DNA from: a virus
IMG/VR virus record: IMGVR_UViG_3300036768_001282
Location: 1 to 32,912 of that record
Direction: 5' to 3' (one strand)
DNA: 32,912 nucleotides
Shown: piece by piece, positions 17,278-30,188 of the stretch
Layout of the letters: each line of letters opens with the position of its first letter
Position numbering within the stretch: position 1 is the first letter of the stretch
The notes under the pieces: generated by a model
What the model was told of the DNA's origin: nothing
The model's database searches: none
Seen by the model: only the letters and a program-made list of their open reading frames with translations
Position numbers and translations under genes: made by a program

Positions 17278-20200
17278 ATGAAATTCAAAGAATTCTTAGA
17301 ACTCCAAGAGAATAGTCTGTACACGGATTCTGCCACGAAAAACGCTCTTCTTGCAGATAAAGAGCGCGTGATGGATAGTCTCATGTTCAACTTCTTTGGC
17401 TTTCTTGGATTGTACAAATTGAGTGATACTCGTGGTTATATGAAAAGTTATGAAACAACTGAAGGGAAGTTGATTGTTCATAACATTAGTGATACTAACC
17501 ATGATGTGAGTTTATCAATCAAATTGGCTTACGACGCAGGTCTATTAAATTTGAATGTTGTGAATAAAATGACTCGCTTGCTTGCATTGATCAAACAGAA
17601 AAGATTGAGGAGCGAAGATCTTGATGAAACTTTAATTAGGGCTCTATTAGATGAAATTCATTATGCCACCCATAGGCCTAGTTCAAGAGTCTTTTTATTA
17701 ATACAGGCATTCCATAATGGCGTTCTCGATTTACCTAATTTAGCAAAAGAACTCTATCAACTCGCAAAGCTACGGGAATATAAAAGTATCACAGGTGAAT
17801 TCCGTGATTTAGTTTTAAAAGGGCAGTACAATAGTCTTTTTGCGAAATTAAAACCTCAAGCGAATGTCACTAATGATGCGCCAACCACTTCCGAGATATC
17901 TGCAGCTGACATTCAAGATACGAATAAGCAAAATCAGTCTGGCTCTTCTGAAGTAGAAAAACCAGTTTCGCCTCCACCTTCAAAATTAGGACAAACAGAT
18001 GAGTTCACGGATGGAATTTTTGAAGCTAAGGATCAAGCGCAATTTAAAGATCTGTTCAAAACTTATGATGTTAAAGAATTTGACTTTGATAAGTTCGTAA
18101 AATGGTTCAAATCACCCAAGAACAAAGAAAAGTTTCCTCCTGGAGTTCTAAATAGTCCACTTTGTAAGTGGCTTCTAGAAACCTTAAATTCCTCGAGGGA
18201 TGGGAAAGTACGCCAAGCCATTAATGATATTTTAGAAAAAATTCTGGTTAATTTTGTTTCAAGTTGTGCAGCTTCGAGAGATATAAGAGGATTCCTTGAA
18301 GCTATCAAAGACATCGACCCGAAGGTTGTTCACATAATCGAAATTTCTAGGAAAAGCAAAAAGATACTTGCAGATTCTCTTGATAAACTTCTAGATCTTT
18401 TCGTTTCTGATATTGTCGGAAATGTTCCTGATTTTTCAGACGCCACATTGGCGCAACTTAAAAAACAATATGAATCTTTCAAAACATTTGCGATAAGCGC
18501 TGGATTTGAGGCGAAAATAAATGCAGTTAAAGCAAAAGAAATTTTTGATGCTGGGTTCAATAAGATCAGTGTTTACATTTTAGCCCTAGATCTCGCATAT
18601 ACCACTTACGCGCGAATTGATTATGCCGAGTGGCTTGAAAAAGCTTTTGGCTCTGGAAGTGCAATCATCAAGTCTGGAGCAAATTCTAAAACGCCGCCTC
18701 TCGCATTGAAGAAGAGTGCCTATGATAAAGCACCAGAAGAAGCTAAGCAAGCTTTTCAATTGCTAGTTCGGAATAAAATTCAAGGGGCAGAAATAGTTGA
18801 TGATGATAATGCTGGAACGTTGTGGGCAAAACATTGGATCTATGAAGTAAGTCCGTATAGGCATGATGCACATTTTAAAATGAGCAACTACAATGAAGTT
18901 AATCTCAAAGCATTCACAGAAAATGAAATTAATGCAGCGTATGAAGTGTTTGCCAGCTTGACGCCTGCTACTCTTGCCAATTGTATAGATCTATTCTGTA
19001 GAATTCGCATAATGAGTTTGAATGATAATGGAAAAGCTTACTATAAAAATTTAGTGAAGGTGATCGCCAAATTAATAAAAACAGGTAAAATTGAAGATGT
19101 CAAATTGCTTGTCATTTGCGCAGGCTTGGATGATTTGTTATTTGATGAAGCCACTAAACTGATCTTGAACAACAACAAATATTTGGATGTCTTAAATGAT
19201 GCCATGGAGTTTTTGATTGATCATAGAAATGATTATGATATATCATATGTTTCATTAAAGAAGATTTTTACGTGGTATTCGAAGCTAGCTGAACAAGGGA
19301 AGGTCATTTCTACCGCGAAATTGGTTACCGCAATCAGATTTTATGGTATTGATGCTTATATTATGCCTAAACAAGAGGATGTCGAAGATGTTTTTCTTGT
19401 ATTAAAACATAAACAAGAATCATTTGATTATCTTCGTTGGTTAGTTAAACATAATGATAATTTGAGGAAAAAAATCATTGAATACAACACGACTGCTAGT
19501 CATGGAGGTGATGTTGATCCTGTCAGAGTGCCTTATCCCGCAATTTTCTTATCTGATGAAGATATTACTGATGGAATGATTGTAAATTTCAAGCAGCAGT
19601 GGTCAGTCAATCCTAAATTCAATAACATCTCAGATTATGCTTTCAGTAAGAAATTGACTGATGCTTGCCGTGAAACAATGGAAGAAGTATTGAAAACATC
19701 TGACAGTAAACCACTCATACTGAAGGCATTGAGTGTTGTTGGTGGAAAAGCATTTAATGATTATTTCAACAAAACAGATGTTTCGAAAATAAAAAATATT
19801 TTTTCTGGTAGCTTGACAAAGCCAGAAGATGTCGCTGATATACTTAGATCAATAGCCAGTGATCAGAAATTCATCACTAATATCGGGCCTACTGCTGCCG
19901 CTAAATTTACGACAGTTCTCCAACAAGCCCTTGAGAACAAGAAAAAATTTGATAAATCTTATCGGGATGAAATCCATAAGTTGTTCTGTGAATTTATGGC
20001 TTCAGGGATGGAATCTAACAAATATGATGTTTTAGAGGAAGTTTATAGTAACGCAAAGGGAGAATTCAAGAAAGCAATTGTTGATTATTTTGTGGGTTAT
20101 AGCTTCTTGGAAAAGGCATCCAAAGCTATTTTCGCAGATGACGTTTTAATCAAACCTTATGAAAAACTAAATCAACAGCGCTTACTTGATGTTCTTCGCT

Positions 20201-21204
20201 ATAACAATGTTAATCCGCCTTCTTTGTCAATTCGTGAAGCGCCGACTTTTAAGACTCTTCTGCAAAGAGCAAATATGGCGAATGCTGTTATCTCTGATTT
20301 AAAGGTTGAACAAGTTGAACATAATGAAGAGTCTTTAGAACGGAAGAGTGCTGAGTATGATGTTTTTAATAAGTATCGTCATGGACAGATTGCAGTTAAA
20401 TTCCTTCGTGAATTCAAAGTTAATATTCCAGAACAAGAAAAAGGACAACAGGAATTTTTGAAGTATATGCCTAATACAGATGAGATTGATCCTGCATTTC
20501 ATGGTACAGGATCAGTTGCCGCGTCTATGATTTTACGTTATGGCTTTGCTGTCATTAATAACGATGACGAGATGGTTGTTGGTCGTATGCTTGGTAATGG
20601 AATTTATTTCTCAAATGTGCTTGATAAGGTTGCCCAGTATGTATCTGATGAAGGTTATACGCGCGGTATTGGCACTAAAGGTTATATCTTTCAAATGAAT
20701 GCATTACTCGGCAAAGAAGGTGTTGATTATAGAGCTGCTGGGCTTGGGGGAGACAGCATCATTTCTCCTGAATGGTGTGTATTTCATCTCAATAAACAAC
20801 TCAGAATTTACAAGGCATTTGAAGTTGAAATTATTAGTAAGGATGATATGGATGCCTTGAAAGCAAAATACAAGATAAATGAGGAAACAGCAGTGAGAAT
20901 ACTCACTTTTAAGGAGTTCTTACGTGAAGCAAGAACTCCAGGTAAACAAGTGACTACTTACGTGTTTGTTGATGGAACAATTCCTGTCTCAGAACACAAA
21001 GCGGTTGATTTTGAACAATTCAGGCCTGAACAGTTTGGTCCTCATGTGTGGCTTGAGCCATCTAAGAATGGTCCCATGGTCTGTATCGAACATGATGGAG
21101 AACAAAGTGAAGCATTTTGTGTGAGATTTACGCATGCTTTCATGAGACAAGGACAAGATTTGATGAAGTTCTTGAATTCACTTCGGAAGAAAACGGTTGT
21201 TTAA
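17278..21204 (+). CDS. Giant (1308 aa) PARP-type ADP-ribosyltransferase with capsid-targeting-like N-terminus
   Basis: AAGGG precedes ATG 17278. The N-terminus MKFKEFLELQE resembles the T4 capsid-targeting sequence with an LxE cleavage site. Residues 12-205 are helical; about 205-245 is a Ser/Pro/Gln-rich linker; about 250-1060 is a long helical region with no family I recognise. Residues about 1070-1185 look like a PARP catalytic domain: AFHGTGS (His1075), GNGIYFS (Tyr1110), GYIFQM, and SPEWCVF (Glu1165) with KQLRIYKAFEVEI after it. The H-Y-E triad and its order match PARP/ART-D enzymes, which transfer ADP-ribose from NAD. T4 Alt and Mod enzymes are R-S-E type, so the class differs. After the catalytic domain, a second targeting-like motif (LTFKEFLRE) starts a 100-aa tail. 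Late promoter upstream. Injection is inferred. Confidence 0.75.
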   Translation: MKFKEFLELQENSLYTDSATKNALLADKERVMDSLMFNFFGFLGLYKLSDTRGYMKSYETTEGKLIVHNISDTNHDVSLSIKLAYDAGLLNLNVVNKMTRLLALIKQKRLRSEDLDETLIRALLDEIHYATHRPSSRVFLLIQAFHNGVLDLPNLAKELYQLAKLREYKSITGEFRDLVLKGQYNSLFAKLKPQANVTNDAPTTSEISAADIQDTNKQNQSGSSEVEKPVSPPPSKLGQTDEFTDGIFEAKDQAQFKDLFKTYDVKEFDFDKFVKWFKSPKNKEKFPPGVLNSPLCKWLLETLNSSRDGKVRQAINDILEKILVNFVSSCAASRDIRGFLEAIKDIDPKVVHIIEISRKSKKILADSLDKLLDLFVSDIVGNVPDFSDATLAQLKKQYESFKTFAISAGFEAKINAVKAKEIFDAGFNKISVYILALDLAYTTYARIDYAEWLEKAFGSGSAIIKSGANSKTPPLALKKSAYDKAPEEAKQAFQLLVRNKIQGAEIVDDDNAGTLWAKHWIYEVSPYRHDAHFKMSNYNEVNLKAFTENEINAAYEVFASLTPATLANCIDLFCRIRIMSLNDNGKAYYKNLVKVIAKLIKTGKIEDVKLLVICAGLDDLLFDEATKLILNNNKYLDVLNDAMEFLIDHRNDYDISYVSLKKIFTWYSKLAEQGKVISTAKLVTAIRFYGIDAYIMPKQEDVEDVFLVLKHKQESFDYLRWLVKHNDNLRKKIIEYNTTASHGGDVDPVRVPYPAIFLSDEDITDGMIVNFKQQWSVNPKFNNISDYAFSKKLTDACRETMEEVLKTSDSKPLILKALSVVGGKAFNDYFNKTDVSKIKNIFSGSLTKPEDVADILRSIASDQKFITNIGPTAAAKFTTVLQQALENKKKFDKSYRDEIHKLFCEFMASGMESNKYDVLEEVYSNAKGEFKKAIVDYFVGYSFLEKASKAIFADDVLIKPYEKLNQQRLLDVLRYNNVNPPSLSIREAPTFKTLLQRANMANAVISDLKVEQVEHNEESLERKSAEYDVFNKYRHGQIAVKFLREFKVNIPEQEKGQQEFLKYMPNTDEIDPAFHGTGSVAASMILRYGFAVINNDDEMVVGRMLGNGIYFSNVLDKVAQYVSDEGYTRGIGTKGYIFQMNALLGKEGVDYRAAGLGGDSIISPEWCVFHLNKQLRIYKAFEVEIISKDDMDALKAKYKINEETAVRILTFKEFLREARTPGKQVTTYVFVDGTIPVSEHKAVDFEQFRPEQFGPHVWLEPSKNGPMVCIEHDGEQSEAFCVRFTHAFMRQGQDLMKFLNSLRKKTVV

Positions 21205-22618: not shown

Positions 22619-22975
22619 ATGAAACCTGCAGTAATAAATCTCACCATTTATCAAGGAAGTACTTTTTCGCAGAAGTTTCAGTGGAAGACAGGAAATCCAC
22701 CAACTCCTGTCAATCTGACTGGCTACACTGCCAGGATGCAAATTCGTGAAAAAATCAAATCTCCTAACTACATCATAAATTTGACTACAGAAAATGGTGG
22801 GATTGTAATAACGAATGCTGCTAATGGAGAATTTTCAGTTGAAATTCCCGCTAACGTAACTGCTTCCATGGATTTTAAAACTGCAGTGTATGATCTTGAA
22901 TTCGTTTCGCCGAGCGGGATTGTAACGAGATTATTTCAAGGAATGGTTATACTTTCTCCTGAGGTGACTAGATAA
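22619..22975 (+). CDS. Tail-fibre-associated Ig-like protein (118 aa)
   Basis: The beginning INLTIYQGSTFSQKFQWK and then PVNLTGYTARMQIREK is a pattern seen in many phages upstream of tail-fibre genes, in small beta-sandwich proteins similar to BppU N-terminal domains. It probably attaches or caps fibre components. No signal peptide or cysteines. A late-promoter-like box precedes it, and the stop overlaps the next ATG region (GATAATG). It opens the receptor-binding cassette. Confidence 0.7.
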   Translation: MKPAVINLTIYQGSTFSQKFQWKTGNPPTPVNLTGYTARMQIREKIKSPNYIINLTTENGGIVITNAANGEFSVEIPANVTASMDFKTAVYDLEFVSPSGIVTRLFQGMVILSPEVTR

Positions 22976-23211
22976 TGTCCGAGACTATTGTCGTTGTAGA
23001 AAATGATACTATAGTAATTACTACAGAAAAAGATCCTGTAGTGATTGAAAAGATTGAAGTGGGACCACAAGGGCCTCCAGGTCCACAAGGTCCTCCTGGG
23101 CCACCAGGCCCTTCGGGAGTAATTAGCGCAGACGCAGGAAATGCTCTTACACACGGATCTGATGGCGGTTTATATTGTCCTGCGGTCATAAGTTCAACGA
23201 TTCATTGGTAA
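22975..23211 (+). CDS. Short collagen-like tail protein (78 aa)
   Basis: An N-terminal beta-like part (MSETIVVVENDTIVITTEKD) is followed by six Gly-x-y triplets (GPQGPPGPQ, GPPGPPGPSG) and then SADAGNALTHGSDGGLY, a phrase I know from phage fibre proteins. Collagen-like stretches trimerise phage fibres. The gene sits between a beta-sandwich fibre protein and other small tail proteins. The codon usage of the repeats is constrained by Gly/Pro, giving locally high GC. Confidence 0.72.
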   Translation: MSETIVVVENDTIVITTEKDPVVIEKIEVGPQGPPGPQGPPGPPGPSGVISADAGNALTHGSDGGLYCPAVISSTIHW

Positions 23212-29103: not shown

Positions 29104-29265
29104 GTGGCCACAAAAAACGACATCACAGGTGATGCTATTAAAAGTCGAGTCATTACGAAAGCTTATGAAGAAGGTTATGAACGGATCTTCGGCAAGAAGA
29201 AGCGCGAAGAGAATGAAAAGTCATTAAATAAAATTGATGACAAAAAATCACAAGAACAGGCTTGA
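29104..29265 (+). CDS. Small basic protein (53 aa), GTG start
   Basis: GTG at 29104 has AGGAGG 8 bases upstream. The product begins MATKNDITGDAIKSR and continues AYEEGYERIFGKKKREE to a charged end. This looks like a short phage protein I have seen in other phages but cannot name. Its TGA overlaps the -35 (TTGACA) of the tmRNA promoter, so the gene reads right up to the RNA gene. Confidence 0.7.
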   Translation: MATKNDITGDAIKSRVITKAYEEGYERIFGKKKREENEKSLNKIDDKKSQEQA

Positions 29266-29290
29266 CAACTTGTAAGAATTGCTATAATAT
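29262..29290 (+). promoter_or_regulatory. Sigma70-type promoter of the tmRNA
   Basis: TTGACA (29262-29267), 17 bases, TAATAT (29285-29290), overlapped by TATAAT at 29283. Transcription would start near 29296, where the acceptor half of the tmRNA begins. Confidence 0.82.
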
Positions 29291-29295
29291 TTTAG

Positions 29296-29541
29296 AAATG
29301 GCTGTGTAACTCAACTTCAGAAAGTCATATCGGACGGCGGTTCGAATCCGCCCAGCTCCACCAGGGGCTGAATTGGGCGTCGACGGTATGGTAAGTAAGA
29401 AGTTTGGGCAGCTCGACAAGGTAAAGTCGTTAAAACCAACCAAAGTAAACGCGAACGACGCAGTTTACGAGTTGGCGGCTTAGTAAGTAACCGCCTGGGG
29501 TTTGGTGGGTACCTCGCAACAGAAACCCACCTTTGTTTTGT
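29296..29541 (+). ncRNA. ssrA: Circularly permuted (two-piece) tmRNA, tag ANDAVYELAA
   Basis: The order is acceptor half, then coding half. The T arm GGCGG-TTCGAAT-CCGCC and CAGCTCC-ACCA (to 29363) come first; GGGGCTG (29364-29370), the mature 5' end, follows without a spacer. GGGGCTG pairs with CAGCTCC including G3-U70, the alanine identity pair. Helix P2 pairs across the halves: CGGTATG (29384) with CATATCG (29326), GAAGTT (29399) with AACTTC (29313), CAGC (29409) with GCTG (29301). A pseudoknot (CGAC/GTCG, GGT/ACC) precedes the resume codon. The tag GCG AAC GAC GCA GTT TAC GAG TTG GCG GCT (29451-29480) is followed by TAG TAA, with a GGCGG/CCGCC helix around the stop. The hairpin GGTGGGT/ACCCACC (29504-29531) and a T-rich end close it. 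It rescues stalled ribosomes. The exact ends are uncertain. Confidence 0.93.
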
Positions 29542-29585
29542 TACCCATATGTAGTAACTGATCTTTTAACACCATGGAGATTCAC

Positions 29586-30188
29586 ATGAGCCAAGAAGAA
29601 TATACTGAAAATCTTGATCTTAATCTCAATACACCGACCAATGCTTTTCTGAATATTCCTATTGCTCGCCAGCACAGTTTCTATTTGAGTGGTCCTATCT
29701 TATCTCCTGAGCATTACTCAAAATGGTTTCATGTAATTCGAAATGCCAGCGAGAATGATGTTGTCATTCTACATATAAACAGTCCTGGAGGAGATGTTGC
29801 GACTGCAATTCAATTTATGCGTGTGATTGCAGAAACTCCCGCGACTGTTGTAGCCAGTGCAGAGGGTAATTGTATGAGTGCCGCTGCAATGATTTTCTTA
29901 GCAGCAGATTCTCATCAGATCAGTGAGCATAGTTGCTTCATGTTTCACAACTACAGTGGAATAAGTGTTGGCAAAGGCGGTGAGATGTACGATAACATAA
30001 TCTTCGAGCGTAAATGGAGTGAAAGGATGCTCAGGAGCATTTATGCCAATTTTCTCACTGATGATGAGATTGAAGCGATGCTCAATAATCGTGATGTTTG
30101 GATGGATGGCGAAGAAGTTGCTAAACGACTAGAAAAGCGATATGAAAAACTAGCCAAAGAAATGGAGGACGAAGAAAATGGGTGCTGA
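29586..30188 (+). CDS. clpP: ClpP-like serine protease subunit
   Basis: ATG 29586 has GGAG six bases upstream, so I use it rather than ATG 29574. The 200-aa protein has INSPGGDVATAIQF, GNCMSAAAMIFLAA (Ser98), CFMFHNYSG (His121) and NNRDVWMDGEEVAKR (Asp170), the ClpP catalytic triad in order. Length is that of ClpP (about 195-207). ClpP needs a Clp ATPase partner, which must come from the host or elsewhere in the genome. It lies 45 bases after the tmRNA, whose LAA-ending tag is of the kind recognised by ClpXP. A role in phage head maturation has also been proposed for ClpP-like phage proteases, but this gene is far from head genes here. Confidence 0.85.
   Translation: MSQEEYTENLDLNLNTPTNAFLNIPIARQHSFYLSGPILSPEHYSKWFHVIRNASENDVVILHINSPGGDVATAIQFMRVIAETPATVVASAEGNCMSAAAMIFLAADSHQISEHSCFMFHNYSGISVGKGGEMYDNIIFERKWSERMLRSIYANFLTDDEIEAMLNNRDVWMDGEEVAKRLEKRYEKLAKEMEDEENGC

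Follow-up and report, generated by a model that had tools for sequence, protein, structure and literature searches.

In precursors of permuted tmRNAs and tRNAs, a spacer that needs excision connects the CCA end and the 5′ end. The stretch of viral DNA analyzed here (the window; 32,912 nucleotides, IMG/VR record IMGVR_UViG_3300036768_001282) carries on its + strand, at 29296–29541, a permuted (two-piece) tmRNA gene in which the acceptor half is encoded 5′ of the coding half and the spacer between the halves is missing; how such an RNA would be divided into its pieces and charged is the question that follows. It is the missing spacer that is new here; permuted tmRNAs in T4-like phages are already known. 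On balance, the sequence favors a real, compact and independently transcribed permuted ssrA of a T4-like phage, which would probably work without a spacer and mature through one cut.

The gene was called as a permuted tmRNA by ARAGORN at 29271–29574, with the tag ANDAVYELAA followed by two stops, and was matched in Infernal by both RF04321 (tmRNA_permuted; 29300–29483, 111 bits against a gathering score of 47, E 4.4e-21) and RF01850 (beta_tmRNA; 29248–29543, 108.1 bits against 84, E 3.1e-32). These scores, above both gathering cut-offs, come from the permuted-model search proposed in a preliminary description of the DNA and confirm the permuted tmRNA described there. Its account of a compact, phage-encoded RNA was also borne out, the RNA measuring ~246 nt, as claimed, and the window carrying T4-like genes. 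The free-energy z-score is modest alone (−2.13), and the case rests mainly on the profile scores together with the compensating changes in helix P2.

The acceptor piece (29296–29363, 68 nt, with a putative 5′ end) is comprised of the 5′ strands of P2, the T arm, the acceptor 3′ strand, the discriminator A and an encoded CCA. Its T stem-loop, GGCGG-TTCGAAT-CCGCC (29336–29352), is followed by the acceptor-stem strand CAGCTCC and by ACCA (29353–29363), and the strand pairs with 29364–29370 across zero intervening sequence. The coding piece (29364–29541, about 168–178 nt) starts at G1 directly 3′ of the CCA, and its likely 3′ end was placed from a terminal hairpin and T-rich tail. In a scripted pairing check all seven pairs of the acceptor helix GGGGCTG/CAGCTCC were intact, G3-U70 included, and every pair was standard in the three blocks of P2 (29300–29413) that join the pieces: 29300–29305/29408–29413, 29313–29318/29399–29404 and 29324–29332/29384–29392, with 6, 6 and 9 pairs. 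The tag frame, ANDAVYELAA then TAG TAA, occupies 29451–29486, and helix P5 (GGCGG/CCGCC, 29474–29495) encloses the tandem stop; the acceptor helix, the three P2 blocks and the helix around the stop codons that had been drawn before are all present as pairings. The pseudoknot proposed before the resume codon held in part: the 4-bp hairpin CGAC-AAGGUAAA-GUCG is found in that position (29414–29429), while the second helix is unconfirmed, its candidate GGU/ACC being 3 bp only and not retained in the nearest relative (L003, below). At the 3′ end, a hairpin with 7-bp pairing (GGTGGGT/ACCCACC), a conserved loop and the T-rich tail TTTGTTTTGTT (29504–29542) is a possible intrinsic terminator; no intrinsic terminator was reported by a terminator scan limited to loops of 8, since the loop of this hairpin exceeds that limit.

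The closest sequence found to the window tmRNA is that of the phage contig IMGVR_UViG_3300035181_001055 (L003, also filed as L203), at 81% identity. The inner block of P2 reads GUCAUAUCG/CGGUAUGGU in the window and GUGCGAUG/CGUCGCAU in L003, each fully paired, and the energy of P2 (−20.2 kcal/mol in the window, −24.2 in L003) weakens to −14.4 and −16.1 when strands are swapped between them. Among foreign strands, the pairing of the window was equalled or bettered by 15 of 204 coding strands and 4 of 204 acceptor strands. The strand-swap test is supportive, not overwhelming, of a P2 kept through compensating changes, and the structure of the tmRNA appears to be under constraint. The two tmRNAs share P5, the 3′ hairpin, a similar tag (ANDGVYALAA in L003) and a position upstream of a related clpP-like gene; L003 differs in having a 33-nt intervening sequence with complementary ends and in sitting within a tRNA cluster.

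The acquisition from a bacterial host that had been suggested is not borne out, the closest sequence found being from another phage. Host origin was sought by sequence similarity in the GTDB class of Dechloromonas; the 274 genomes sampled give short matches only, almost all to the T arm and acceptor, and thus no donor can be named. RF01850 matched 2 of 143 sampled genomes of the same class.

Upstream of the RNA, a sigma-70-like promoter is predicted at 29262–29290 (+ strand), with TTGACA at 29262–29267 and the extended −10 element TGCTATAAT at 29280–29288 (the tool's own call was TAATAT with a 17-nt spacer). It matches 10 of 12 consensus bases, though two such sites were found where shuffled sequence gives 1.1, and the match is weak and not significant alone; the predicted transcription start, near 29296, coincides with the beginning of the acceptor piece. 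The tmRNA gene has the look of a self-contained cassette. The related phage contig L004 has flanks of 82% and 87% identity at this place but lacks the cassette, with 128 unrelated bases in its stead; no permuted tmRNA was found elsewhere in the fragment holding L004. As L004 lacks the gene at the same place, phages of this group can probably do without the tmRNA. A small 53-aa ORF just 5′ of the tmRNA (29104–29265) has no PHROG match, but viral contigs hold at least 126 relatives; a conserved tmRNA beside this ORF was considered and rejected, as of 80 loci only one showed it, that of the near-identical contig described below.

T4-type genes place the window in a T4-like phage; they include gp32 (PF08804), matching T4-like phages at 47–49%, the C-terminal domain of T4 RNase H and a DnaB-like helicase. 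Downstream of gp32, the C-terminal part of a 1308-aa ORF (17278–21204) bears a weak resemblance to the catalytic domain of PARP (PF00644; 26.4 bits, below the cut-off of 26.7; E 5.6e-6), which makes a phage ADP-ribosyltransferase possible, and a short collagen-like ORF (GPQGPPGPQGPPGPPGP, 22975–23211) has no Pfam match. About 45 bases downstream of the tmRNA, and outside the RNA, begins a gene for a ClpP-like serine protease (29586–30188, + strand; PF00574, E 1.5e-10; phrog_1827, ATP-dependent protease, E 4.3e-65). Proteins tagged by tmRNA go to ClpXP, and for this reason the neighbor may be a functional partner of the tmRNA. The association is not general; a strict tmRNA-clpP pair was rejected, as ClpP relatives in L004–L012 occur without a tmRNA in their records, which are mostly fragments.

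A permuted tmRNA had been considered unusual on a T4-like phage, a view that does not survive the wider search. Two pattern scans of IMG/VR each gave at least about 120 stretches fitting a permuted tmRNA, together more than 200 contigs, and ARAGORN called 319 permuted tmRNAs over the loci gathered, overlapping and bacterial loci included. Among cultured T4-like phages, the Stenotrophomonas phages Marzo and Bhz51 (Menderavirus) have permuted tmRNAs annotated as tmRNA, and the Synechococcus cyanophages S-SSM7, S-SSM6a, Sf-FS3, S-CAM1 and S-CAM3 have them unannotated. A published study counted 53 two-piece forms among 133 unique phage tmRNA structures and described the two-piece tmRNA of phage Melnitz (PMC9004378). 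Permuted tmRNAs are thus common in T4-like phages and often unannotated. The tmRNA of S-SSM7 lies at NC_015287.1 20967–21318 (L489, 309–660) and that of S-SSM6a in L493; an annotated hypothetical protein, YP_004324078.1, falls within the former and is probably a false gene. Those of Sf-FS3, S-CAM1 and S-CAM3 (L490, L491, L492) have no encoded CCA. Searching INPHARED with the window tmRNA returned T-arm-like matches only.

What the preliminary description overlooked is that CCA (29361–29363) directly abuts G1 (29364) with no bases between, so that the acceptor stem is closed by a four-base ACCA loop; the zero spacer was found by direct reading and by pattern and pairing searches, and the corresponding junction in L003 holds 33 nt. 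The spacer varies widely in length among permuted tmRNAs and is absent from the mature form, and its lack lowers the typicality of the gene, not its membership. A scan for spacers of 0–8 nt across 84,980 bacterial and archaeal species, with a pattern that requires an encoded CCA and some fixed bases and is not exhaustive, gave 51 matches with lengths of 3 (1), 4 (46), 5 (3) and 6 nt (1), and none of 0–2 nt. Such short-spacer genes (mostly 4 nt; genome loci L252–L302) are found mainly in Rhodocyclaceae and Accumulibacter. Permuted tmRNAs that share one tag and have a 5-nt spacer occur in a genome contig of Dyella sp. (L275) and in a viral contig (L078), which may point to a prophage or a phage contig. 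Among viral sequences, a looser scan for 0–2 nt spacers found only one further contig with the window's junction (L013, the same as L002) and three contigs (L057, L348, L349) of a marine cyanophage group, the only group to come near, with 1 nt after the CCA. The L002/L013 contig is separate, with 124 mismatches to the window in 10 kb (98.6% identity), and its tmRNA and junction are identical; the zero junction was seen in these two near-identical contigs only. When bases between discriminator and G1 are counted, so that genes lacking an encoded CCA are also comparable, the window has 3, the three contigs 4, the cultured cyanophages 5, and the bacteria examined, sampled cyanobacteria included, at least 5. 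The second short-loop group retains its acceptor stem by a double change (CATCTCC/GGGGATG in L348, CACCTCC/GGGGGTG in L349), as would be expected if very short loops still mature.

A zero-spacer gene is a limiting case: either RNase P cuts a closed ACCA loop or the gene encodes a natural uncleavable tmRNA. In the route proposed, host RNA polymerase would transcribe the tmRNA from its own promoter, and the transcript would fold with P2 holding the acceptor and coding pieces and the ACCA loop closing the acceptor stem. An endonuclease, most probably host RNase P, would then cut the RNA once between A76 and G1. Cleavage by RNase P yields a 3′-OH and a 5′-phosphate; therefore this one cut would complete the two ends together, leaving the CCA end with its 3′-OH and G1 with its 5′-phosphate, with no trimming. 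Host AlaRS would then charge the acceptor piece through G3-U70, and host SmpB would load the charged tmRNA, so that stalled ribosomes are rescued by trans-translation during infection and ANDAVYELAA is added to the stalled products as a ClpXP-type degradation tag. The host is implied as the source of SmpB as none was detected in 20 viral records, L002 and L003 among them, while it was found in 10 of 14 control genomes; the records of the window and its relatives are fragments, and a phage SmpB elsewhere is possible. RNase P normally holds leader and CCA apart, and cutting a 4-nt loop may for that reason be hard. Hairpin model substrates are cleaved by RNase P (PMC11143913). It is tentatively proposed, at somewhat short of even confidence, that one RNase P cut at A76/G1 in the ACCA loop makes both ends, and that loops of 3–4 nt from discriminator to G1, unseen in the bacteria searched, arose two or more times among T4-like phages.

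The first alternative, which seems unlikely, is maturation in two steps, in which a cut inside the ACCA loop (e.g. after A73, tRNase Z-like) is followed by re-addition of CCA by the host CCA-adding enzyme and removal of the leftover CCA leader from the coding piece by RNase P, the encoded CCA thereby serving as a 3-nt spacer. The permuted tmRNAs of T4-like cyanophages and of several cyanobacteria lack an encoded CCA, with down to 5 nt from A73 to G1, and CCA addition is for this reason the norm there; however, an encoded CCA normally blocks tRNase Z, and an exact CCA kept beside G1 fits better if the encoded CCA is used.

Less probable still, and a doubtful reading, is that loss of the spacer stops maturation and the uncut, uncharged RNA acts as a decoy, titrating SmpB or occupying stalled ribosomes and so dampening host trans-translation in infection. 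The tight 4-nt loop is shorter than in any bacterial gene found, and a precedent exists in the mycobacteriophage DS6A, whose form is the tRNA-like domain only; such a molecule inhibits tmRNA (PMC4131195, PMC11915505). A decoy would need neither the tag frame and tandem stop nor G3-U70 and CCA, yet all of these are intact. With each functional element kept, a working tmRNA is the better reading, though with so tight a loop the RNA may yet stay uncut and act as a decoy; if uncleavable, the window tmRNA would be a candidate inhibitor of trans-translation.

Decay of the gene, with a recent and inactivating deletion of the spacer and both contigs carrying the young allele, is very improbable. The junction is indeed confined to two near-identical contigs, where ~3 differences in the tmRNA are expected at their divergence and 0 are seen, a weak sign of constraint at best, but the spacer is gone precisely from boundary to boundary and all helices are still paired. 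An assembly or sequencing artefact deleting a palindromic spacer can be set aside as negligible: the complementary ends of the L003 spacer can form a deletion-prone hairpin, but the exact junction is common to two contigs with 124 mismatches between them in 10 kb, and thus is not an assembly error.

In comparing the spacer-less, working tmRNA favored here to known systems, the betaproteobacterial RF01850 tmRNAs (e.g. of Rhodocyclaceae) share its permuted order, conserved-loop 3′ hairpin and tag type, in line with a score above the gathering cut-off; they differ in an intervening sequence of 3–6 nt in the short-spacer set (mode 4) and longer elsewhere, and the terminator hairpin of the model is missing in the window. 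The Methylophilales phage Melnitz is likewise a myophage with T4-like genes and a permuted tmRNA, but one reported to be of alphaproteobacterial type and controlled by a glutamine riboswitch (PMC9004378), whereas Infernal found no riboswitch in the window. The cyanophage tmRNAs (S-SSM7, S-SSM6a, Sf-FS3, S-CAM1, S-CAM3, L348, L349 and L057) are also from T4-like phages and have very short acceptor loops, but with a cyanobacterial tag type and either 5 nt from discriminator to G1 without an encoded CCA or CCA plus 1 nt. Beyond tmRNA, the permuted tRNA-Tyr of Thermofilum pendens has an encoded CCA and a 1-nt intervening sequence, the shortest reported among permuted tRNAs, the removal of which still awaits explanation according to a review (PMC3978253). 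Unlike the window RNA, this tRNA is archaeal and is re-ligated after processing, whereas tmRNA remains in two pieces.
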